22,382 nucleotides of DNA. Source: a virus. The translations under genes were made by a program, and so were the position numbers. Shown in pieces: positions 4,669-20,863 of this stretch. Within the stretch, counting starts at the first letter, position 1, and the number at the start of each line of letters is the position of its first letter. A model generated the notes under the pieces. That model was not told where the DNA came from and did not search any database. It saw only the letters and a program-made list of their open reading frames with translations. The stretch is from positions 1 to 22,382 of IMG/VR virus record IMGVR_UViG_3300008219_000117; one strand, given 5' to 3'.

Positions 4669-5745
4669 CTAATATCCCCTGGATTGCCTTTGTCTCCTGA
4701 GTTCAGCTTCGCGTCTGCCCCCACCTAGAAGCCCACGGATCTTGTTAACACCACCCATGATTAACTCTTGTTCACGCCTTTGCCGTCCCAATTGTTTATT
4801 TCTGAGATTCTCTTCTGCCTGTTCCCAGGTCAATGTATCCCCTTCAAGCAAGGGAGGTGATTCTGTTGGAACCACCCCCTCCTTTCTTGATTCTGATCTA
4901 AGGGCATATAGATGCTGCATAGCAGCCTCAACCGTATCATGGGTTTCTATATCCCTCCAGCTATCGCCATCACTAACCTGAACAGTTCTATTGCTCAACC
5001 TATACCTTACGGGAGCTTGCGACAAAGCCGCATTACTCCTGAGTGGTATCTGCCCTTCTTCTGAACCAAGTAAGCCAGCAACACCTGGTGTCTCGAATGG
5101 ATCTATCCTGTCACCCAGTAAGGATCTCGATGCTCTCCTTCGCCTGGTACGACGCATACCTGGCGTAAGAATATGAGGCACACCCTCCCATTCCTCTTCG
5201 GGTTCTGACTCTGTAGACATGAATACAGAGTTTCTAACCGTATCCGCTTCGAGCTGCCTGCGCTTGTTTAACCCAGGATTACTTGACGTCAATGCCTCGA
5301 TTGAATCTGCTACCGCGTATTTATCGCCAGTATTGAATGCTTCTACCACAGACTCAGGAACCCTACCAAAATTATAGGCTAACGAGGTGACCACAGCTAA
5401 CGTATCCGCATCCAGGTTATCATATATTTGAGGACTGATACTATTTCTAGCCCTGGGCATAAACTCGGTAGTCAGCCTTCTATCTATATCCCGATCAGCA
5501 TCCTCTTCGGTAACGGACATTCCCTTGGTAACGGGTATAACCCTACCATCCTCGAGCGTAATTGTATCACTACCATAACCGGCCCTGTATGCATTTACAT
5601 CCCATGTGCCCGTGGGCTGCCAGCCTTCTCGTTGGATAATGAAATCCCTGACAACATTGTATCTAGGATCTTGTCTTATCTCTATCGCCAGATCATCCTC
5701 CGGCGTTTCTTCTGTAGCAATCGGCCCCAACAAACTAGCCATCAT
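4669..5745 (-). CDS. GH24-like lysozyme domain protein with long C-terminal extension (probable virion-associated muramidase)
   Basis: 358 residues. Residues about 30-175 resemble phage lysozymes of the GH24 fold, which cleave the glycan strands of peptidoglycan. The likely catalytic Glu is E40 in IIQREGWQ. Next come AYRAGYGSDTITLEDG (52-67), VTKGMSVTEEDADRDIDRRL (72-91) and the helix motif SLAYNFGRVP (121-130). Residues 176-358 form a polar, Arg/Glu-rich extension with no recognisable domain. The start is ATG-ATG at 5742-5745 behind AAGGTGGG. It sits in the head operon beside terminase, away from the lysis cassette at 19.5-20.9 kb, so a role in the virion during entry is more likely than host lysis (inference). 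An internal capsid protein is an alternative. Confidence 0.8.
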   Translation of the reverse strand: MMASLLGPIATEETPEDDLAIEIRQDPRYNVVRDFIIQREGWQPTGTWDVNAYRAGYGSDTITLEDGRVIPVTKGMSVTEEDADRDIDRRLTTEFMPRARNSISPQIYDNLDADTLAVVTSLAYNFGRVPESVVEAFNTGDKYAVADSIEALTSSNPGLNKRRQLEADTVRNSVFMSTESEPEEEWEGVPHILTPGMRRTRRRRASRSLLGDRIDPFETPGVAGLLGSEEGQIPLRSNAALSQAPVRYRLSNRTVQVSDGDSWRDIETHDTVEAAMQHLYALRSESRKEGVVPTESPPLLEGDTLTWEQAEENLRNKQLGRQRREQELIMGGVNKIRGLLGGGRREAELRRQRQSRGY

Positions 5746-6332: not shown

Positions 6333-7241
6333 TTAACTCTCCATCAGGTTTGTGAAACTTTCGATAATAGTATCAAGTTCTGGTAGCCAGCGGTGTTTGG
6401 GATCCAGTTTAGCAAGATTACTTCTATTCTCCACAACTACCGACCGAGTAGCCAATACAATTTTAAGATCGGCAGGAATCGGAGGCGGCAATTGCGCCAC
6501 TGTTGCTCCAGCCAGATCCCGGTCATACTCATCACTCGACTGCGCCAGCATCTTTACGCGAGTACGTTCCGGCTGATCCATAGCCACAACGTGTGATGCC
6601 ATGGCCAGCTTCTGGGTGTGATTCGTTTTCGCTTCATTGATTAAATCGGACAGCACACCGCGATCATCCTCGTTTATCTTTTTAAGTGCCTCTTCCAACT
6701 CAGCACTCTCAACTTCCTTCTTCGCCTCTGTCAACGTCAGTGTTCCATTGATGACAGGTTCTACGAGTTCAGGCTTACGCTTCCGTATCTTCTTCGCTTC
6801 CTGCACATACTGATGGTTCGTCTGGAAGGTTTTAGCGGCGTTGTCGCGGGATTTGGAACCTTGTGCAATTGTTTGCACAATGTCACCCAAGTCCGTTCGC
6901 GTACCCTGCCTTTCGCGAGCTTCTGCTTCCAAGACATCCAAGATATCTGGGTCTGCTGCGAGCATAGCACGTTGCTGACTTGTGAGATGTCTGCGCTGAA
7001 GATTCGTCGAGACAATCCACTCGCCAGCAGTTACACCATCGGGTGCGCTCCATTCGGTTTGCTTCGGCGCAATGCCCAAGTCATTACATGCCCTGACACG
7101 GTTACGTCCATCAAGTAGTTGATTGTCGTGGATCACCACAGGATGCAGTTGACCACGATCTCGTATGTCATCGACAAGCTCTTCATACTCACGACCAAAC
7201 AACAACGGAAACTTCTCTGCTACCGGATGAATCTCGATCAT
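6333..7241 (-). CDS. ParB-like N-terminal domain protein (ParB/Srx-type)
   Basis: 302 residues from the ATG at 7241. Residues 1-95 carry the ParB N-terminal domain: MIEIHPVAEKFPLL at the start, a helix with REYEELVDDIRDRGQLHPVV, then the hallmark LLDGRNRVRACNDLGI (42-57) and STNLQRRHLTSQQRAML (78-94). Such domains bind CTP or act as nucleases, and many phages encode one near terminase genes. The rest is helical and charged, with a likely HTH-containing middle (SRDNAAKTFQTNHQYVQEAKKI). A GTG at 7280 would lengthen it by 13 residues, but its ribosome site is too close and homologues begin at the ATG. A role in DNA handling, packaging choice or regulation is inferred; no ParA partner is visible. 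Confidence 0.9.
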   Translation of the reverse strand: MIEIHPVAEKFPLLFGREYEELVDDIRDRGQLHPVVIHDNQLLDGRNRVRACNDLGIAPKQTEWSAPDGVTAGEWIVSTNLQRRHLTSQQRAMLAADPDILDVLEAEARERQGTRTDLGDIVQTIAQGSKSRDNAAKTFQTNHQYVQEAKKIRKRKPELVEPVINGTLTLTEAKKEVESAELEEALKKINEDDRGVLSDLINEAKTNHTQKLAMASHVVAMDQPERTRVKMLAQSSDEYDRDLAGATVAQLPPPIPADLKIVLATRSVVVENRSNLAKLDPKHRWLPELDTIIESFTNLMES

Positions 7242-7243
7242 AG

Positions 7244-7438
7244 TTATTTTTTTAGAGAAGGGAATTTTTTCTCGACACACCTTCTGACTCTGGCCTGCTC
7301 CGCTTCCGTACCAAACTGAGCTATCCTGGCTAGAGCATTCCTGGCATGAGAAATATCTGGGACCGGATAAGTTCTACCAGGACCGCAGAACGCGCTGTCC
7401 GGCAACTTCTTTCTCTGCTTCGTGGACAGAGTCGCCAT
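7244..7438 (-). CDS. DUF6582-like small phage protein (64 aa)
   Basis: 64 residues from ATG 7438, which has AGGAG five nt upstream; a GTG at 7444 is possible but less well spaced. The sequence follows a widespread pattern: LSTKQRKKLPDSAFCGPGRTYP, then ISHARNALARIAQFG, then VRRCVEKKFPSL. I recall this as the DUF6582 type found in phage and bacterial proteins, sometimes next to capsid proteases; the family name is from memory. The first 65 nt overlap the zinc-ribbon gene in another frame, and the TAA lies 2 nt before the ParB-like ATG. The molecular function is unknown. Confidence 0.8.
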   Translation of the reverse strand: MATLSTKQRKKLPDSAFCGPGRTYPVPDISHARNALARIAQFGTEAEQARVRRCVEKKFPSLKK

Positions 7439-7556
7439 CGTCACTCCTGAAGTGTGGATGATCCTCCAAGACTATACCGCAATATTCGCACGTTAGCCAC
7501 AGTATCGTAGGTTCCTGCGTTTGACCACAACCTGAACAGCTTATGTGTTTAGTCAT
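7374..7556 (-). CDS. Small zinc-ribbon-like protein (60 aa)
   Basis: 60 residues. Two Cys pairs, CSGC (residues 7-10) and CEYC (23-26), form a compact zinc ribbon, followed by an acidic, His-containing tail (DHPHFRSDDGDSVHEAEKEV). The start is strongly supported: GGAGG lies four nt before the ATG at 7556. The last 65 nt overlap the next gene in a different frame, whose own AGGAG sits inside this gene. Such ribbons in phage usually bind nucleic acid or host proteins; nothing more specific can be said. Confidence 0.75.
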   Translation of the reverse strand: MTKHISCSGCGQTQEPTILWLTCEYCGIVLEDHPHFRSDDGDSVHEAEKEVAGQRVLRSW

Positions 7557-7598
7557 AAGACCTCCACATATAATCTTTTCTGTATTTAACTGGTTACT

Positions 7599-7688
7599 TT
7601 ATTTCCAGATGTTTTCCATGCCCCACTTCCAGGCCATGTAATAGTACAGAAAAAACTCGTTGTTACGCAACGGTTTATGGAATACCAT
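7599..7688 (-). CDS. Possible aromatic 29-aa peptide
   Basis: A short frame starting MVFHKPLRNNEFFLYYYMAW and ending in ENIWK, with GGAAG placed four nt before the ATG at 7688. The middle FFLYYYMAW is hydrophobic and aromatic and could touch a membrane. It is the only sensible frame through the 162-nt gap between the 78-aa gene and the zinc-ribbon gene, but it is short and overlaps one copy of a diverged 29-bp repeat, so it may be chance or a decayed gene. A competing 35-codon frame starts at ATG 7698, nearly the same place. Confidence 0.3.
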   Translation of the reverse strand: MVFHKPLRNNEFFLYYYMAWKWGMENIWK

Positions 7689-7713
7689 AGGTCTTCCATA
7701 CCCCTCTTCCAAG
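7605..7713. repeat. Two diverged 29-bp direct repeats, 80 bp apart
   Basis: Positions 7605-7633 and 7685-7713 match at 23 of 29 bases; each contains TTCCAT, four C's, and CTTCCA. Read on the minus strand, each copy can encode a peptide of the form W-K-x-G-M-E-x-x-W, in different overall frames because the 80-bp spacing is not a multiple of three. They lie in the leader between two genes of the late operon. They could be protein-binding sites, RNA elements or traces of a duplicated tiny gene. Confidence 0.6.
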
Positions 7714-7975: not shown

Positions 7976-8003
7976 AAATTACCTGGGACTCCTGTTACGT
8001 CAA
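7976..8003 (-). promoter_or_regulatory. Candidate sigma70-type promoter for the head operon
   Basis: On the minus strand TTGACG (7998-8003, five of six consensus bases) is followed after 16 nt by TAATTT (7976-7981, a weak -10). Transcription would begin about 10-15 nt before the GGAG and ATG of the 78-aa gene, giving a very short leader. The spacing is acceptable and the position sensible, but the -10 is poor and late phage promoters often use other factors. Confidence 0.35.
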
Positions 8004-8073
8004 GTCGGTATGTGTTGGGGTAAATAGTTCCTGCCCCCTGTTCAAGTAAGAGGGGGGGGTTCGCTGTTGCTTT

Positions 8074-8215
8074 AGCGAACGCGAGCGGAGGCGAGCTTGT
8101 GAGCAAGTAGGCGAGCGCAGCGAGAACCACAGCGTGGCAGCGGACCCCAAGCAGCGTAGCAGCAGCGACCCAGCTAAAGCTACGAGTGAGTAGCGAGCGA
8201 GGAACGAGCGAGCCG
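8074..8215. repeat. GCGAGC/AGCG-rich low-complexity island
   Basis: About 140 bp dominated by short related words on the plus strand (GCGAGCG, GCGAGG, AGCAGCG, ACGAGCGAGC) in irregular order, bounded on the left by the inverted repeat GTTCGCT/AGCGAAC and on the right by CGATTTTTT. The words GCTTTAGCG near the left end and AGCTAAAGCTACG near 8172-8184 echo each other. The composition differs sharply from the flanking phage DNA. It is not a tandem array with fixed period and not a CRISPR. Possible roles are a protein-binding or structural element in the divergent control region, or an acquired mobile repeat. Confidence 0.7.
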
Positions 8216-8231
8216 ATTTTTTCTGGAATTG

Positions 8232-8251
8232 GTGTCCTCTTATTAGGACAC
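8232..8251. promoter_or_regulatory. Perfect 7-bp inverted repeat with 6-nt loop
   Basis: GTGTCCT (8232-8238) pairs exactly with AGGACAC (8245-8251) around the loop CTTATT. It follows a run of six T's at 8217-8222 on the plus strand and has no T-run after it on either strand, so it is not a normal intrinsic terminator. It could be an operator half-site pair or an RNA hairpin in an early leader. Confidence 0.45.
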
Positions 8252-8293
8252 GCTAGGCTTAGTCTGTCTCGGTTGGGTCCAGTTCCAAACCCT

Positions 8294-8322
8294 ACCGAAC
8301 TTGTAACCGGTTTTGGTTCGGT
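8294..8322. promoter_or_regulatory. Nested palindrome, possible operator
   Basis: ACCGAAC (8294-8300) is the inverted partner of GTTCGGT (8316-8322), and between them lies the exact palindrome AACCGGTT (8306-8313). Nested dyads of this size in a divergent promoter region are typical of operator sites for small HTH dimers; the phage encodes several such proteins. No tRNA fold could be drawn here despite the T-arm-like GGTTCGGTTCC. Confidence 0.4.
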
Positions 8323-8433
8323 TCCCAGGCGCACGATAGCCTCCGTCTCTTTGTAGAAAGAGCTGCCTCCCCATTTCCGGAAGTCTCTCCTTCCTCCTCA
8401 ATCAATGTTCTCGGCTGCTAACATTTCTTGCTT

Positions 8434-8462
8434 TTGCCTCTTGCGTATGCAACGGATATGTA
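8434..8462 (+). promoter_or_regulatory. Weak candidate promoter for the early operon
   Basis: TTGCCT (8434-8439), a 17-nt spacer and TATGTA (8457-8462). Each box only partly matches the sigma70 consensus (four and three of six). It lies about 45 nt before the first early gene's start, where a promoter is needed, but other choices in this region are nearly as good. Confidence 0.25.
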
Positions 8463-8507
8463 GTAGGTTCTTTCATGTCAATTAATACTCTGCCGGAGGC
8501 ACGCAAC

Positions 8508-11007: not shown

Positions 11008-11270
11008 CCGATTTCGATGCAATGGCTAGGAGGACCGACCCTGATACATCACATATCGCTGCGGTCACGGTCGATGCCAGCAGGCTTGAAGGGTTTGTTC
11101 TGTCGATTCTCGGTCGATATCCAGACGGTCTAACAACCAGGGAAATAAGCACACTGTTGTCTATAGATATGGTGTCAATATCCCCCAGGATGAAACCGCT
11201 CGAGAAAAAAGAGTTAGTCGAGCGCACAACTGACAGGCGCGGTCGATCAATCGTATGGAGGGCAAAATAA
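11004..11270 (+). CDS. Winged-helix DNA-binding protein (88 aa)
   Basis: 88 residues. 'RRTDPDTSHIAAVTVDASRL' is followed by a winged-helix core: VLSILGRYPDGLTTREIST, LLSIDMVSISPRMKPLEKKE as recognition helix, and LVERTTDRRGRSIVWRAK as the wing. The motif 'DPDTSHIAA ... SPRMKPLE' is a well-known small phage protein type, probably a transcription regulator. The ATG overlaps the upstream TGA (ATGA), and the TAA overlaps the next ATG. It could bind the dyads in the 8.2-8.3 kb control region, but this is inference. Confidence 0.8.
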   Translation: MTDFDAMARRTDPDTSHIAAVTVDASRLEGFVLSILGRYPDGLTTREISTLLSIDMVSISPRMKPLEKKELVERTTDRRGRSIVWRAK

Positions 11271-11710
11271 TGCGAGTTGAAAAGGTCGGCACGGTCGGAG
11301 TTGATTCCGGAACCATTGCGATAATGGACCCGTGCTATCATATCCGCGATAGAGACAAAGACGGTCAAATAGACGACAATGGCCCACCCTCAGAAGAGTT
11401 AAGCCAGGAAGTATACAAACTCCTCGAGGATTCCCTGACAACCAACATCCTCCTCGAGGATTCCCTGACAACCAACATCACTGGCAAGTTTGCAGGTATC
11501 GAGTATGGGGTAGCCGTCGCCTGTCGGTCGGGGTATGGCGATGGCATCTATCCGGTCTACGGTATCATAGCTTCTAATGATGAGACTAATGGCATGGGCG
11601 AGAGATGCATGGGATTGTTGATTGACTTCTCTACTAACAATACAATCGGCTCCGTACTCGGTGGTGCTATGGCGGCACATGAACTCACTAACTTCGGGCT
11701 GTCGATATGA
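11270..11710 (+). CDS. DUF4241-like protein with internal duplication (146 aa)
   Basis: 146 residues from ATG 11270 (GGAGG eight nt upstream; an ATG at 11255 is less likely). The start 'VGTVGVDSGTIAIMDPCYHI' and the later 'GVAVACRSGYGDGIYPVYGI' follow a strand-rich family like DUF4241 found in phages and bacteria (name from memory), of unknown function. Residues 51-70 are LLEDSLTTNI repeated exactly twice, encoded by a perfect 30-bp tandem duplication that lengthens a helix and loop before the conserved TGKFAGIEYG. The protein may still fold, since the insert lies in a surface-like segment. The stop overlaps the next ATG. Confidence 0.8.
   Translation: MRVEKVGTVGVDSGTIAIMDPCYHIRDRDKDGQIDDNGPPSEELSQEVYKLLEDSLTTNILLEDSLTTNITGKFAGIEYGVAVACRSGYGDGIYPVYGIIASNDETNGMGERCMGLLIDFSTNNTIGSVLGGAMAAHELTNFGLSI
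11420..11479 (+). repeat. Perfect 30-bp tandem duplication inside a gene
   Basis: Two identical 30-bp units, 11420-11449 and 11450-11479, each starting CTCCTCGAGGATTCC and ending ACCAACATC. The repeat keeps the frame and doubles the peptide LLEDSLTTNI. Identity at every base, including third positions, implies a recent event or an assembly artefact. Confidence 0.95.
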
Positions 11711-12434: not shown

Positions 12435-12641
12435 TTGTCTCAGCAGGAATGGGCGAGAAAGGAGCTGCGTCGTCGTATCGATGATAGCGGCCTTGGGGTT
12501 ACCAAGTTCAGTAAGACCAGGCTTATCAGAGATCCGTCTACGGTCCACAGGTGGCTTGCCGGTGGACACATCACAAATGTTGTGTGCGAGTGGCTATTAG
12601 GTAACTGGAGAATACTAGAAAACGACTCGGTCAATGAGTGA
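12435..12641 (+). CDS. Small HTH protein, Cro-like (68 aa), TTG start
   Basis: 68 residues starting at TTG 12435, chosen because the full site AGGAGG ends four nt upstream and no ATG or GTG fits. The segment LGVTKFSKTRLIRDPSTVHRWLAGG resembles a phage HTH in which the second helix reads 'DPSTVHRWL', followed by ITNVVCEWLLGNW. Small proteins of this type are Cro or repressor-like regulators. The last 8 nt overlap the next gene. It is a candidate to bind the palindromes upstream of the early operon. Confidence 0.7.
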   Translation: MSQQEWARKELRRRIDDSGLGVTKFSKTRLIRDPSTVHRWLAGGHITNVVCEWLLGNWRILENDSVNE

Positions 12642-12825: not shown

Positions 12826-12958
12826 TCTGATCAGAGCTGAAGAGGTAGGGCGCATACAGCTAGAGAATATGGTCAGAGTGTTAGACATCTTTAATGCGTC
12901 TGTCGAGGCTGCAGTCAACCCCAAGCCGGAAAAGAAGGAGGACGACAGTGCCTCCTAA
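12803..12958 (+). CDS. Small hypothetical protein upstream of the annealing protein (51 aa)
   Basis: 51 residues from GTG 12803 with AGGAG nine nt upstream. A helix (NDLIRAEEVGRIQLENMVRV, then LDIFNASVEAAV) is followed by a Lys/Glu/Asp tail. Its end contains the AAGGAGG that drives the next gene, which starts 11 nt before this stop. The tight coupling supports translation. Function unknown. Confidence 0.6.
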   Translation: MTYPTKNDLIRAEEVGRIQLENMVRVLDIFNASVEAAVNPKPEKKEDDSAS

Positions 12959-13544
12959 GAACTGGGACAAAGAGATATGGGGCGACCTGTCTCAAATCGA
13001 TGTAACGCAATATGCAATGCGTAAGGGGACTCGAGGCTTCAATCCTCTATACATCCCCTGGTCGGTTGTACATCACATCCTCATGGACAAATATGCCGGT
13101 CACTACACTCGGACTGATCACCCACTGGAGATACTTCCGGATGGTACAGGTCTAGTAAAGGTGACGGTCGGTCTTCGCGATGTTGAGAAAACCGCTATGC
13201 TCGCAGTGATGAACCACAAGTTCGAGGCGATCCAAGCTGACGCCAGGAACACTGCTGATGCATATCAACGTGCGTTTGTCAAAGCCGCCGGTCTATTCGG
13301 CCTAGGCATATCCTTGTGGATTACAGGAGAAGGTGAGCCGGTCACCCTTGACGCCAAGAGTGTTGAAGTTGCCTACTCTGATGCGTCCGGTGATCTTCTC
13401 AAACTCATTAAACAGATCGAAGAAGATACCACATCCACCATAGATGCGGATGCACTGTCTTTAGCCAAGTCTCTGCTCGAGGATAAGAGCAAACCCACCC
13501 ACCGTATTCTAGATGCAACGGAATACCTCAGATCACAACTCTAG
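12948..13544 (+). CDS. Single-strand annealing protein, DUF1071/Sak3-like
   Basis: 198 residues from GTG 12948, with AAGGAGG six nt upstream. The layout follows DUF1071/Sak3 phage recombinases of the Rad52-like group: IWGDLSQIDVTQYAMRKGT, LYIPWSVVHHILMDKY (normally 'YLSWA--W'), a strand region with VKVTVGLRDVEKTAMLAVMN, then NTADAYQRAFVKAAGLFGLG and ISLWITGEGE. The C-terminal third is acidic and helical. It should coat single strands made by the exonuclease (15153-15974) and anneal them during phage recombination. The nearby nuclease, initiator and helicase genes fit. The family call is by eye but several motifs agree. Confidence 0.85.
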   Translation: MPPKNWDKEIWGDLSQIDVTQYAMRKGTRGFNPLYIPWSVVHHILMDKYAGHYTRTDHPLEILPDGTGLVKVTVGLRDVEKTAMLAVMNHKFEAIQADARNTADAYQRAFVKAAGLFGLGISLWITGEGEPVTLDAKSVEVAYSDASGDLLKLIKQIEEDTTSTIDADALSLAKSLLEDKSKPTHRILDATEYLRSQL

Positions 13545-13825: not shown

Positions 13826-14060
13826 GCTGAACAAGATTGCAGCATCCCTCTTTCCAGAACTAAAGAGAGAGATCTCTACTATACAGGACGACATACGGTC
13901 TGCTGAACACAGAATAAAAAGGATACCAGGCAGTGTCTTGGTTAACGGTGCAAAAGACGCGCTGATCCAGTGCCTGTCTCATCTCGATTCTGCCAACTCA
14001 GCTACAGTTAGTGCATTGAAGTCCGTACATAGCCAGTATCCGCATACTCCTGACCTATGA
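13809..14060 (+). CDS. Small helical protein (83 aa)
   Basis: 83 residues from ATG 13809, overlapping the previous gene by 17 nt; AAGGG lies eight nt upstream. Mostly helical: ELNKIAASLFPELKREISTI, then DDIRSAEHRIKRI, then KDALIQCLSHLDSANSATVS. No catalytic motif. It sits between the annealing partner and the nuclease, with ATGA overlap to the latter, so a recombination or replication accessory role is possible. Confidence 0.65.
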   Translation: MDSPSELNKIAASLFPELKREISTIQDDIRSAEHRIKRIPGSVLVNGAKDALIQCLSHLDSANSATVSALKSVHSQYPHTPDL

Positions 14061-14389
14061 AGGAGTCTGCGATATCTAGGGAGATTCGCAATTTTCTGAG
14101 GGATGTGATGGGGTTCTCGGTCTACTCGACTGAGCAGGGCTACCGCAAGGATCGTGGTGGCACAAGACAGACCCCTGGTATCCCAGATTTAATAATTTTT
14201 GGCAAGGGCATCTTCGCCTTTGTCGAAGTGAAGACTCCCAAGGGCAAACTGAGAGATTCTCAGAAACAGTTTCAGTCTGATTGTGATAGCTGCGATCCTG
14301 TCATTCCGTATTTGGTATGGAGGGATGTCAGGGATGCATTCGATTGGCTACTCGAGATTGGTGTTATTACGCAGTCAGATATCACCTGA
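14057..14389 (+). CDS. VRR-NUC domain nuclease
   Basis: 110-residue single-domain nuclease of the VRR-NUC type (PD-(D/E)XK fold). Visible catalytic elements: E9 in SREIRNFL, D44 in TPGIPDLIIF, and E57-x-K59 in AFVEVKTPKG, followed by RDSQKQFQSDC. Stand-alone phage VRR-NUC proteins are thought to cut branched DNA and may replace a Holliday-junction resolvase. The gene starts in ATGA with the previous stop and ends in TGATG with the initiator gene. Its position in a recombination and replication set agrees. Substrate is inferred. Confidence 0.93.
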   Translation: MKESAISREIRNFLRDVMGFSVYSTEQGYRKDRGGTRQTPGIPDLIIFGKGIFAFVEVKTPKGKLRDSQKQFQSDCDSCDPVIPYLVWRDVRDAFDWLLEIGVITQSDIT

Positions 14390-15156
14390 TGTCAGGCTTT
14401 GTGTTATTAGCCAGAAAGCTGCAGCGCAATGCACTTTGGCGCAGAGATCCGGATCACCTGAAATTGTTTTTATATCTATTAATGAACGCCAACTATATGA
14501 AGGATGAAACCTACACCTACACTACAGGCACTGATAAGGTGGTGGTCGGCTACGCCCAGTATCTGTGTTCCTATTCCAAGATCAGTAAGGACTGTCAGTA
14601 TTCCAGCGGCAATAAACTGGTTCGTTGGGGCTTCTCGAGAGTAAGTAGAATGATCAAGGCACTGGAGGACGAGGGTAGGATTAAGGTGTTAAGCAAGACC
14701 CAACTCGGAAGTCTGATACGCATAGAGAACTACAAGGCATACCAAGACTTTTCGACCTATAGCCATAGGGAGCCTGGAAGACAACAGGAAGACAACAGGA
14801 AGACATCTGGAAATAAAGTAAACAATGAAATACAGATAAAAGAACTATGGTCGGTATACCTCGAGGAGCTTGGTGGAAAGGGCAACCAACCAACACTGAC
14901 TGCCAAAAGGAAGAATGTCCTGGGGCTTCTTTACGAGGAGCAATTGAAGGGAGATGACAATTACCTGGACACCTTCAGGAACGTCCTAAAGGCTGTGCGG
15001 TCTTCTGATCACCACATGAAGGAACGAGCATGGCACTTGCCTGAATCGTTATTCCTGAATCAAGAACGTAGGGAGAGGTGGGCCTTAAAAGGCTCTGAGC
15101 AGATACACAAATCAACCGCTCACGGTGTGAGCAGAACATGGAGCATAGACGCATGA
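14389..15156 (+). CDS. Replication initiator, O/DnaD-like
   Basis: 255 residues from the ATG at 14389 (TGATG overlap). The N-terminal domain (1-115) is a winged helix typical of phage initiators: FVLLARKLQRNALWRRDPDH, LKLFLYLLMNANY, then GFSRVSRMIKALEDEGRIKV as recognition helix and wing. A low-complexity linker (about 125-150) is encoded by the iteron cluster described separately. The C-terminal domain (150-235) is helical (IKELWSVYLEELGGKGN, KRKNVLGLLYEEQLKGDD) with the DnaD-like 'Y--LP-SLF' part. As in lambda O, the protein would bind its own gene's iterons and load the helicase at 15971-16840. No polymerase is nearby. Confidence 0.85.
   Translation: MSGFVLLARKLQRNALWRRDPDHLKLFLYLLMNANYMKDETYTYTTGTDKVVVGYAQYLCSYSKISKDCQYSSGNKLVRWGFSRVSRMIKALEDEGRIKVLSKTQLGSLIRIENYKAYQDFSTYSHREPGRQQEDNRKTSGNKVNNEIQIKELWSVYLEELGGKGNQPTLTAKRKNVLGLLYEEQLKGDDNYLDTFRNVLKAVRSSDHHMKERAWHLPESLFLNQERRERWALKGSEQIHKSTAHGVSRTWSIDA
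14776..14842 (+). other. Probable replication origin: 11-bp iterons and A/T-rich tract
   Basis: Two exact direct repeats GGAAGACAACA (14776-14786 and 14787-14797), a third copy with two changes GGAAGACATCT (14798-14808) and a degenerate fourth GGAAATAAAGT (14809-14819), followed by an A/T-rich stretch to about 14842. The 11-nt period is not a multiple of three, so it is a DNA-level repeat and not a protein repeat. It lies in the linker-coding part of the initiator gene, as the lambda origin lies in gene O. Confidence 0.65.
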
Positions 15157-15974
15157 CGCCAGAAGAGTACCACGCCAGTGGTGGACTATCGAACAGCATG
15201 ATGACCAGGCTACTAAGGTCACCGGCACACCTGAAGCATTACATCGATCATCCGGACGCACCAACCCCACAGATGATATTGGGCACACAGGTCCATACTG
15301 CCCTCCTAGAGCCTGATGTGTTCGCTGACCTGTGCGTGGTTGGGCCTGATGGCCCTTGGACTCGTAAGGCTGCAAAGGAGGAGATCTCGAGCATGGTGGA
15401 TGCCGGTTACAACAAGAGCGATATCTTGAAGCCTGACGTTTACGATCAGATTCATGATATGGTTGATTCCGTTCTTGGTAACCCATCCGCGTCCTTGATG
15501 ATTCGGTCAGGGCGGTCGGAAGGGAAGATCGAGGACTCGCTGTTCTGGGCTGACCCAGGAACCCATGTGGAATGCAAGGCTAGGGTTGATTGCATCCCTG
15601 CAGAATCATCTATGTACTCGAACTATCTGGTAGACTTCAAGACTACCATTGATGCGTCACCCGAATCGTTTGCAAAATCGGTGGTAAATTTTGGATACCA
15701 TAGACAGGCGTACCACTACCTCAGTGGATGGAATAGTCTGCATCCGGAAGATCAGAGAAAGGGGTTTATAATCATAGCTTGCGAGAAGTCTCCCCCTTAT
15801 GCGGTAGCTATTTATGAGATGAGTGACCAGTGCATGGAGCTGGGCAAGCATGAAGTAAGTAGTCTTATGGAGCTTTATGCACGGTGTGATGAGGATGATG
15901 TCTGGGAGTCGTATCCACCAACCGTTCAGATGCTTGACCTTCCTGCATGGGCAACCGCCAAGGTGGGTCAGTGA
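15153..15974 (+). CDS. RecE-like exonuclease (PD-(D/E)XK, DUF3799 type)
   Basis: 273 residues from the ATG at 15153, which overlaps the initiator stop (ATGA) and has GGAG nine nt upstream; ATG 15138 is an alternative. The family start GGLSNSMMTRLLRSPAHLKH and GTQVHTALLEP (H48) are typical of exonuclease VIII-like proteins. The catalytic core shows ECKARVDCIP (D146), LVDFKTT (D161, K163) and the QAYHY motif (185-189). It should degrade one strand of duplex ends to make single-stranded DNA for the annealing protein encoded 1.6 kb upstream, a RecET-like pair. The stop overlaps the helicase GTG. Confidence 0.92.
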   Translation: MTPEEYHASGGLSNSMMTRLLRSPAHLKHYIDHPDAPTPQMILGTQVHTALLEPDVFADLCVVGPDGPWTRKAAKEEISSMVDAGYNKSDILKPDVYDQIHDMVDSVLGNPSASLMIRSGRSEGKIEDSLFWADPGTHVECKARVDCIPAESSMYSNYLVDFKTTIDASPESFAKSVVNFGYHRQAYHYLSGWNSLHPEDQRKGFIIIACEKSPPYAVAIYEMSDQCMELGKHEVSSLMELYARCDEDDVWESYPPTVQMLDLPAWATAKVGQ

Positions 15975-16840
15975 AAGATATACTGAGTCCTGAATTCCTC
16001 GATCACTTCCATGAGAAGGCACATGAACCGATCAGGGCAGTGCCTACACATCTCCCAACTCTGAATAGAATCAGTAGGGGGTCGGGCGGTGGCATAGGGT
16101 TTGGGCCTATATTTGTGACCATTTCTGGAGCGACCGGCAACGGCAAGTCTGCACTCGCACTCGGATTCGCATCTGCAGCATTACAGTACGGACTCGAGGG
16201 AGGTGTCTCCATGATCAATCTCGAAATGTCCTCTATCCAGACCGCGACCAGAATGTATGCCATTCACAGCGATACACGCATTGCACAACTCGAGCAAGGT
16301 AACTTCCATGATGGTGCGTTCAGAGAAGCGAGGAAGGCTATGGAAGGCTCTCAGCCGCTATGGGTGCCTGACAACATCCTTACGAGTTGGGAGGACTGCA
16401 TTGCCTATATGGAGGAGTGCCTGGAGAAAGCCGGTACACGATACTATATACTCGACTACCTACAGTTAGTATCGACCGGCACTGAGTCGGAGATCTATGC
16501 GACCACGCAAAAGATAGTTACTGAGCTTCGAGCATGGGGCGTAAGGAACGACGCTACCATACTCTGTCTGTCCCAGTTCAATAGGACGACCAGCTCCAAC
16601 TACGATCAGTCACCCAGGATGACGGGGCTGTTCGGTGGTATGATACTGGAAGCGAGTTCTGATATCGTATTGCTGCTAGATCACAGTAGATATAGGCGTG
16701 ACGGCAACACAGCTTACACACACCTCATTGTGGCAAAGAATCGGTCAGGACCAACCACTACTATACCCATTGCATGGTGCTATAAGACGCTACAGGTGAG
16801 GGAAGCTACACCAGATGAGGAACACTTATGGCCCAAGTGA
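15971..16840 (+). CDS. DnaB-like replicative helicase (RecA-fold ATPase domain)
   Basis: 289 residues from GTG 15971 (GTGA overlap; AGGTGG four nt upstream). It has the C-terminal ATPase domain of DnaB helicases: Walker A GATGNGKS (53-60), catalytic Glu in NLEMS (E85), Walker B YYILDYLQL (158-166), SQFNR (201-205) and the finger region KNRSGPT (256-262). The N-terminal primase-interaction domain of full DnaB (about 150 residues) is absent, as in several short phage helicases. It would be loaded at the origin by the initiator and unwind DNA at the fork. Confidence 0.93.
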   Translation: MKDILSPEFLDHFHEKAHEPIRAVPTHLPTLNRISRGSGGGIGFGPIFVTISGATGNGKSALALGFASAALQYGLEGGVSMINLEMSSIQTATRMYAIHSDTRIAQLEQGNFHDGAFREARKAMEGSQPLWVPDNILTSWEDCIAYMEECLEKAGTRYYILDYLQLVSTGTESEIYATTQKIVTELRAWGVRNDATILCLSQFNRTTSSNYDQSPRMTGLFGGMILEASSDIVLLLDHSRYRRDGNTAYTHLIVAKNRSGPTTTIPIAWCYKTLQVREATPDEEHLWPK

Positions 16841-17614: not shown

Positions 17615-18073
17615 ATGGGCAAGTATTCGCCAACACCTAAACTAGAGATTGTACCGATCACTCAACGTGAGGCGAAGGCGTTTGTTGAGCGATATCACCG
17701 ACACCACGCTCCCTCCAGGGGTGGAAAGTTTTCCATAGCCGTCAGTCTTAATAACAAGATCGTAGGGGTGGGGATGGCCGGTCGTCCTGTTTCGCGACGA
17801 CTTGATGACGGGTTTACCTTGGAAATCAACAGAATATGTACAGACGGCACCAGAAACGCTTGTTCAAAATTATATGGTGCGTGTATGCGAGCCGGTAAGG
17901 CAATGGGCTATACAAAGTTTATTACCTACACGCTTCCGTCTGAAGGGGGTGCCTCATTAAGGGCTACAGGTTGGGAACTAGTGGGGGAAGCCGGTGGTGG
18001 AAACTGGAACAGCAAGAATCGCCCTAGAGTGGATACGGAGCTAGACCAGCTTAAACTGAAATGGGAGAAGTAG
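17615..18073 (+). CDS. XF1762-like protein with GNAT fold
   Basis: 152 residues. 'ITQREAKAFVERYHRHHAPS' and GGKFSIAVSLNNKIVGVGMAGRP (split across the conserved GG) lead to TLEINRICTDGTRNACSKLY, the acetyl-CoA-site-like helix GACMRAGKAMGYTKFITYTL, and the final EGGASLRATGWEL. This is the XF1762 family of phage and bacterial proteins, related to GNAT acetyltransferases. The substrate is unknown; modification of a host factor is a possibility. It is the last gene of the plus-strand block and meets the minus-strand gene at 18051 tail to tail with a 23-bp overlap. Confidence 0.85.
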   Translation: MGKYSPTPKLEIVPITQREAKAFVERYHRHHAPSRGGKFSIAVSLNNKIVGVGMAGRPVSRRLDDGFTLEINRICTDGTRNACSKLYGACMRAGKAMGYTKFITYTLPSEGGASLRATGWELVGEAGGGNWNSKNRPRVDTELDQLKLKWEK

Positions 18074-19478: not shown

Positions 19479-20116
19479 TATTTAGTACCCCAGAGAACGT
19501 ATCCCCCTGCCAAGCCTACAACCGCGAGCCACCAATCAGCCTTGAGCCTTAGTCCAAGACTAGGTTTCATGGAAGCCTTCAGCGCAGCGACCTGTGCCTC
19601 GAGCATAAAGCTCTTGATCCCGAGTTCTCCTTGAACCTCTCGAAGACTGAGGACGAGTTCACTCGCCTGGTCTGCTCTTAACGCTTCCGCTAATCGCGTT
19701 TCACGCTCAATCACAATAATAGAATCTAATTTTGTAATCTGCATTTCATAACCAATAACGACTCGGTCGAACTCCAAGGCTTGTATCGAGTCCAGAGATG
19801 CCCTCAGACGCTCAGAAATCGCCTGAGAACGATCTCGAGCTTCTCTACGCTCTCTGGTAAGCCTAGCGACCTCACGCTCGTTTATTCGCTCTTGTTCTAA
19901 TGCGGCTGAATCAGCGACCTCGAGTGCGAGGGTGAGTGAGTCTGCCCGATGTACCACGGAATCAAGAACAATCTCCTGAATTTCTATTCTTTGTTCCGTG
20001 TCGTCGGCTACACCACGGTAGTACGCAGCTTGCATACTCTGTTGGGCGATAGTGCCGATTAGTCCGATAACGGCAACGAATACAACTGTCCATGCCCAAT
20101 TAGGTATTGTTACCAT
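19478..20116 (-). CDS. Spanin-like coiled-coil protein with two membrane helices
   Basis: 212 residues. An N-terminal membrane helix (WAWTVVFVAVIGLIGTIA, about 7-24) is followed by a long, highly charged coiled coil (about 30-185; many Arg/Glu/Leu heptads) and a second hydrophobic segment near the end (WWLAVVGLAGGYVLWG, about 194-209). Position after holin and endolysin suggests an Rz-like inner-membrane spanin that helps disrupt the outer membrane. The extra C-terminal helix is unusual for Rz; no separate outer-membrane lipoprotein or lipobox was found, so a unimolecular or different mechanism is possible. The ATG overlaps the endolysin stop by 7 nt. Confidence 0.7.
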   Translation of the reverse strand: MVTIPNWAWTVVFVAVIGLIGTIAQQSMQAAYYRGVADDTEQRIEIQEIVLDSVVHRADSLTLALEVADSAALEQERINEREVARLTRERREARDRSQAISERLRASLDSIQALEFDRVVIGYEMQITKLDSIIVIERETRLAEALRADQASELVLSLREVQGELGIKSFMLEAQVAALKASMKPSLGLRLKADWWLAVVGLAGGYVLWGTK

Positions 20117-20556
20117 CTAGCCGGTGCGCTCCTACCTATCATGCCCCGTATATCGATATGAGTAAATGTCTGATAATTGCCGATACCAAACTGATTGCTC
20201 AAAGGATGTGCTTCCAGCATTGCAGCCACCTGATAAGGTTTATATCCCACCTTCACGATATCTGCAGCTCCACAAGTCATATGCATAGAACGCAGTACAC
20301 CACCGATTGCATAATTATAATCGGGATCTCTATACCAGGAATTGACGAGTATAGGAGTTGGTATCTCATAATCTCTCAACCATTGCAGTACGTCTATTAG
20401 CTTAACAGCGTTTCCTAGAAGGTCGAAGGTCGGAGCAGACAACTCAACGCCCTTTGCCGTGCGTCCTACATCACAGATTTCCAGTGGTGAGAAGTTCTGG
20501 ATACCTAGCGCAGATAGCTCCGCTCCACAGATCTCATTCCAATCACTTCTCGTCAT
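20110..20556 (-). CDS. Endolysin, peptidase M15-like (D-Ala/L-Ala-D-Glu peptidase)
   Basis: 148 residues from ATG 20556, which overlaps the holin by 14 nt; an upstream GTG at 20622 would overlap it by 80 nt and is less likely. The M15 zinc peptidase motifs are clear: VNSWYRDPDYN, SMHMTCGAADI (the SxHxxGxAxD motif, one zinc His and Asp) and THIDIRG (second zinc His). It cleaves peptide cross-links or stems in peptidoglycan and is probably the lysis enzyme, acting after the holin opens the membrane. The N-terminal part (CGAELSALGIQNFSPLEIC) matches neither a signal peptide nor a known wall-binding domain. Confidence 0.9.
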   Translation of the reverse strand: MTRSDWNEICGAELSALGIQNFSPLEICDVGRTAKGVELSAPTFDLLGNAVKLIDVLQWLRDYEIPTPILVNSWYRDPDYNYAIGGVLRSMHMTCGAADIVKVGYKPYQVAAMLEAHPLSNQFGIGNYQTFTHIDIRGMIGRSAPARW

Positions 20557-20863
20557 GCTCTTGGAATCTTGAGTCGTTGTCCAAGAGATCAGGTCTGCGT
20601 GGATCTTTGGTAAGGGAAGCACCGATACCCTGTGCTACTGCACCGATCTGTGGTAACAGATACTGTGCAATCCTGGGACCAGCAGCCCACGCGAGCAAGC
20701 CGGTAAATATCGTACCAAGTAGTGCGTAGATAGCATTGCTTACATTACCCCATAGTACGATATCGAAAAGGATTAATGCACCAGTGAACAACAGTGAGCC
20801 TACAAGGAGTGCCCGTGCTGCAGACAACTTACCTTTTTCATCACTCAGAAGCTGTGCGATCAT
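20543..20863 (-). CDS. Holin-like protein
   Basis: 106 residues. A short charged start with KGKLSAARALLVGS, then two membrane helices: about 17-38 (ALLVGSLLFTGALILFDIVLWG) less a few residues, and about 44-69 (AIYALLGTIFTGLLAWAAG). A charged, cytoplasmic C-terminal tail follows (LTKDPRRPDLLDNDSRFQEH). The 'GK-S--R' start followed by two helices is a familiar phage holin form. It forms holes in the inner membrane at the time of lysis. It lies directly upstream of the endolysin with a 14-nt overlap. The ATG lies 14 nt after the stop of the large virion gene; no strong ribosome site is seen. Confidence 0.85.
   Translation of the reverse strand: MIAQLLSDEKGKLSAARALLVGSLLFTGALILFDIVLWGNVSNAIYALLGTIFTGLLAWAAGPRIAQYLLPQIGAVAQGIGASLTKDPRRPDLLDNDSRFQEHDEK

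Follow-up and report, generated by a model that had tools for sequence, protein, structure and literature searches.

The stretch of viral DNA analysed here, referred to as the window (22,382 nt, positions 1 to 22,382 of IMG/VR record IMGVR_UViG_3300008219_000117), carries two related sites in which short GGAA boxes precede an A/T-rich tract. One of them (site A) lies inside a replication initiator gene and the other (site B) in non-coding DNA. The two sites probably constitute a matched pair of initiator-binding replication sites, with a layout like that of phage SPP1. They are conserved as DNA and occur together in related phages, and their box type changes jointly with residues of the initiator.

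A repeat array and an A/T-rich tract within the initiator gene

The initiator gene and the elements of site A are the following.

14389..15156, plus strand: DnaD/O-like replication initiator, 255 aa, assigned from profiles, an AF2 model and Foldseek
14776..14786, plus strand: site A iteron 1, exact GGAAGACAACA
14787..14797, plus strand: site A iteron 2, exact GGAAGACAACA
14798..14808, plus strand: site A iteron 3, GGAAGACATCT, two changes relative to iterons 1 and 2
14809..14844, plus strand: box 4 of site A with the A/T-rich tract that it opens, a candidate unwinding element, GGAAATAAAGTAAACAATGAAATACAGATAAAAGAA, common to site B

Box 4 (14809-14819, GGAAATAAAGT) consists of GGAA followed by A/T and opens the A/T-rich tract. 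The first-pass annotation had described two exact 11-bp repeats, an altered third and a partial fourth, and all of these were confirmed at 14776-14819. The A/T-rich stretch that it had placed after them, in the linker-coding region, was also recovered and falls in and just after the linker. Starting at 14809, the tract of 36 bp has an A+T content of 78%, belongs to the least stable 0.1% of the 36-mers of the window and coincides with the least stable stretch of the initiator gene. Only two self-match runs of at least 19 at periods of 5 to 40 exist in the window, namely the site A tandem and a 30-bp duplication at 11420. The 19-base self-match of site A at lag 11 was obtained in none of 1000 synonymous recodings of the initiator protein made with the codon usage of the phage.

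The initiator matches the DnaD-like profile phrog_2514 (E 6e-19) and the O-like profile phrog_345 (E 3e-6). An AF2 model built from 12 sequences, usable for the winged helix (a 6-sequence version was poor), predicts a winged helix at residues ~20-115 with fair confidence, a disordered linker at 121-144 and a helical C-terminal domain, so that the repeats of site A encode part of the linker between the two predicted domains. Several of the best viral fold matches in Foldseek are named replisome organizer or DnaD, and a fold search of the PDB with the same model was uninformative. No relatives of the initiator were found in the named-phage collection or in the genome collection, and the named phages closest in portal or helicase have replication modules of other kinds.

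A second copy of the site in non-coding DNA

When the initiator gene was searched against the window, boxes 3-4 and the tract of site A were found again at 7576-7617 on the minus strand (88% over 42 bp, E 7e-10), and nothing else in the window came close to this match. This second copy is absent from the first-pass annotation and was found in the present analysis. The 42-bp match is part of a conserved 145-bp non-coding element. Site B itself (7572-7710, minus strand, non-coding) is located ~7.2 kb from site A, at the divergence of early and late genes, and is organized as follows.

7687..7710, minus strand: upstream block of site B, consisting of boxes 1 and 2 at 13 bp spacing, with box 3 following after 67 bp, kept in the seven aligned B sites
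7607..7630, minus strand: boxes 3 and 4 of site B, spaced by 13 and 11 bp
7572..7606, minus strand: box 5 of site B with the A/T-rich tract, GGAAATAAAGTAACCAGTTAAATACAGAAAAGATT
7374..7556, minus strand: small zinc-ribbon ORF just after site B, replaced by a different gene in some relatives

The architecture is thus a box-13-box block, then a box-13-box-11-box block and then the A/T tract GGAAAYAAAGTAAMCAGTTAAA. This layout is common to the window and to L006, G001, L008, G007_1, L033 and L032, with 67-68 bp between the two blocks (66 in L032). The same divergence also holds ~500 bp lacking a convincing gene (7980-8470), within which 8075-8215 is a GCGAGC-rich low-complexity stretch.

Selection acts on the DNA

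In G007_1, whose initiator is 62% identical to that of the window, the tract GGAAACAAAGTAAACAGTTAAATACAG is nearly equal to the tract of the window and is read one frame over, the linker residues above it being ..RKQSKQLNT.. and ..GNKVNNEIQ.., respectively. This phage has one 11-bp box fewer upstream, which is offset downstream, so the length of the linker is unchanged. Conservation of the same tract DNA in another reading frame indicates that selection acts on the DNA. The observed similarity was exceeded by 0 of 2000 synonymous recodings for the window, G001 and G007_1, and in a cross-phage test it was matched by 1 of 5000 synonymous versions of the G007_1 gene; the recoding test was weak for the more distant L010 (75/2000) and L017 (17/2000). 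The DNA-level selection proposed in the first-pass annotation is therefore supported, both by the frame-changed tract and by the copy in non-coding DNA.

The two sites are paired in related phages

An IMG/VR DNA pattern scan combined with protein scans yielded twelve distinct genes for the initiator, and site B was recovered in ten phages or fragments. Site B is present, on the strand opposite to the initiator gene, in all seven phages whose contig extends far enough, and also in three fragments that carry only this site. The distance from A to B among relatives is ~7-9 kb, G001 being excluded because its contig is open between the sites. The window, G001 and the first phage of G007 each have exactly two full sites. 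When ~140-270 windows were ranked per phage, those of the initiator linker gave the top off-locus match in six of the seven phages, always at the minus-strand site B. Site B is conserved although the initiators are only 46-62% identical to that of the window. Box number at site A varies between phages; the repeats and the A/T element inside the initiator gene are kept in 11 of the 12 genes examined.

The twelfth gene, and the seventh phage of the ranking, is that of L032, in which site A is degenerate, the linker bearing one or two loose boxes only, and site B is complete. A relative that keeps the linker and lacks the repeats, which the first-pass annotation had named as evidence against its reading, does therefore exist in this one phage, with site B intact. 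This suggests that site B can persist while site A decays.

One of the records deserves a comment. G007 (IMGVR_UViG_3300030098_003320, 59,795 bp; L018, L025-L027, L035) holds two related phage genomes head to tail, with two terminases, two portals and two initiators. Its end lies in a stretch ~98% identical to an earlier one, so the record probably arose by the joining of two co-occurring phages during assembly.

Box type and winged helix change together

A second lineage (G007_2, L034, L036-L039, L041) has linker repeats of GGAACAG type, and site B, where the contig reaches it, bears the same GGAAC word; the word of the window group is GGAAR. The L032 initiator is 59% identical to that of the window and 44% to the GGAAC lineage, and yet GGAAC is found in all five boxes of its site B; this C is absent from the remaining six B sites of the alignment. 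L032 thus seems to have switched box type. Its protein sides with the GGAAC lineage at 6 of 67 diagnostic alignment columns. Three of the six (57, 63 and 81) fall where the two predicted DNA-binding helices of the winged helix begin, or immediately before that, and there is also a change to a basic residue at position 60. Since GGAAC boxes and winged-helix substitutions change together, the initiator is indicated as the binder. This pattern is what would be expected if the initiator reads the fifth base of the box and, with few lineages at hand, constitutes a strong hint and not a proof. The repeats of site A are very probably real landing sites for the initiator.

Alternative explanations

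The boxes could be operators for the initiator or another phage protein, controlling the late operon at B and autoregulation at A, with replication starting elsewhere. In several phages a minus-strand gene does lie directly downstream of site B, and both sites are oriented with local transcription, as a transcriptional role would predict. Moreover, a small conserved protein, putatively HTH (12435-12641), is encoded in all checked phages with site B except G001, whose contig is without this segment. However, the putative helix DPSTVHR of the protein is the same in the window and L032 despite the box change, and this protein was rejected as the binder. No sigma-70-like promoter occurs on the relevant strand at either site, the gene downstream of site B varies although site B is conserved, and the A/T tract is kept alongside the boxes at both sites. 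We regard operators as unlikely. An RNA element acting as a leader, in antitermination or in translational control is very unlikely: both copies are on the transcribed sense strand, but no covariation supports the consensus fold of the seven B sites (term +0.43, 1 of 23 pairs), no Rfam match was obtained, and DNA binding better accounts for the phasing by 11 bp, a DNA turn, and for the joint change with the winged helix.

Linkers of such initiator proteins are often polar and repetitive, and the variable number of boxes at site A would suit a repeat that arose by chance or from a protein-driven low-complexity linker, site B being a recent duplicated fragment. The synonymous recoding and frame-change results contradict this, as does the maintenance of site B in phages with such divergent initiators, and it is most improbable. 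Iterated short repeats also occur in some centromeres, and a ParB-like gene adjoins site B in the window, as expected of partition or anchoring sites for its product. This gene is absent from G007_1, G007_2, L032, L033 and L037, all of which have site B; a partition site was rejected and is scarcely credible.

Comparison with known phage origins

The pair of initiator-binding replication sites that we favour was compared with origins described in the literature. The Bacillus phage SPP1 has two origins, oriL in gene 38 and the intergenic oriR, about 12-13 kb apart; both consist of direct repeats and an A/T-rich unwinding element bound by the replisome organizer gp38, and a block at oriR is regarded as the trigger for the change to recombination-dependent replication (PMC6316719, PMC3485210). 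As in SPP1, the phages studied here have two sites made of repeats and an A/T tract, one inside the initiator gene and one intergenic, and a DnaB-type helicase, an exonuclease, an annealing protein and a junction resolvase are phage-encoded in both (PMC6316719, PMC3485210), the resolvase here being a weakly assigned candidate. In contrast to SPP1, the sites are ~7-9 kb apart, mutually inverted and built of 11-bp GGAA boxes, and the virion type differs, the portal here being SU10-like. No separate helicase-loader gene was recognised either, as none of the early genes scanned, among which small ORFs without assignment remain, matched a gp39-like or P-like family.

Lambdoid phages have a single origin in gene O, with four iterons in lambda and six in Stx phages, where the additional iterons add residues to O (PMC7466680). 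Lambda likewise has iterons next to an A/T-rich tract midway along its initiator gene (PMC7466680), and this part of the lambda-like origin called in the first-pass annotation stands. As the closest model, however, lambda was rejected on account of the second site in each genome. The boxes are also shorter here and variable in number, and the DNA of the tract is preserved across a change of frame. At a lambda-type origin a separate P-type loader recruits host DnaB; this phage encodes its own DnaB-type helicase, and no P-like gene was recognised among those scanned. With two matched sites per genome, SPP1 oriL/oriR is the better fit.

Phage 80alpha combines an SPP1 gp38-related initiator with a Sak recombinase needed for replication, and has a DnaC-like loader and no helicase (PMC5499656). 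The initiator and Sak-like protein found here resemble this module; the short DnaB encoded here does not.

By these comparisons sites A and B seem to work like the SPP1 pair, a classification that stops short of membership. SPP1 has so far been the worked example of one origin in the initiator gene with a matched second site elsewhere. This layout is now seen in an uncultivated podovirus-like group that offers two box types, a frame-changed tract and, in L032, an apparent switch. The two box types and L032 make the roles of the sites and the code of initiator-iteron recognition testable with plasmid modules.

Proposed function of the two sites

In the mechanism that we propose, the winged helix of the initiator would bind GGAA boxes that recur about once per turn of the DNA helix, and the bound protein would strain open the adjoining A/T-rich tract. 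The C-terminal domain may then help to load the phage DnaB-type helicase once the tract has melted. On the model of SPP1, theta replication would start at one site, the other being a second origin or a fork block that may aid the switch to recombination-dependent concatemer synthesis through the neighbouring exonuclease, Sak and resolvase. For site B, the candidate roles are a second origin, a fork block or a late-operon switch. The genes that would take part are encoded around site A.

12894..13544, plus strand: Sak-like single-strand annealing protein, PF06378 E 4e-10
14057..14389, plus strand: VRR-NUC nuclease, candidate junction resolvase (weak assignment), PF08774 E 2e-6, phrog_5702 Holliday junction resolvase E 5e-8
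15138..15974, plus strand: exonuclease VIII-type nuclease, phrog_412 E 2e-73
15947..16840, plus strand: short DnaB-type replicative helicase, C-terminal domain only, PF03796 E 1e-29, phrog_19 E 1e-34

The first-pass annotation had proposed cumulative GC-skew as a check on an origin at site A. The skew reaches its minimum near site B in both the window and G007_1, and in G001 towards the contig end that holds B; no change is seen at A. Gene direction turns at the same place, which confounds the signal.

A more speculative reading, to which we give a minor chance, is that the inverted sites form a split bidirectional origin, in which A would send a fork rightwards through the early genes and B leftwards through the late genes. 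Site B would tie late expression to replication via the initiator, and the change from GGAAR to GGAAC with residues ~57-63 and 81 would be a recognition code switched at least twice. If this is true, each fork would run with transcription.

Other features of the window

The helicase (15947-16840) is without an N-terminal domain. Of the phages compared, the window phage and G001 alone have the ParB-like gene beside site B (6333-7280, phrog_12047 E 2e-11). A Mom-like DNA modification protein (17615-18073, phrog_1384 E 2e-38) was not found in the related contigs searched, including G001. Two candidate lysis enzymes, a lysozyme-family protein and an M15 peptidase, are encoded at 4669-5745 and 20110-20622. 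Finally, the perfect 30-bp tandem duplication (11420-11479) lies in the ORF 11255-11710 and repeats the ten residues LLEDSLTTNI.
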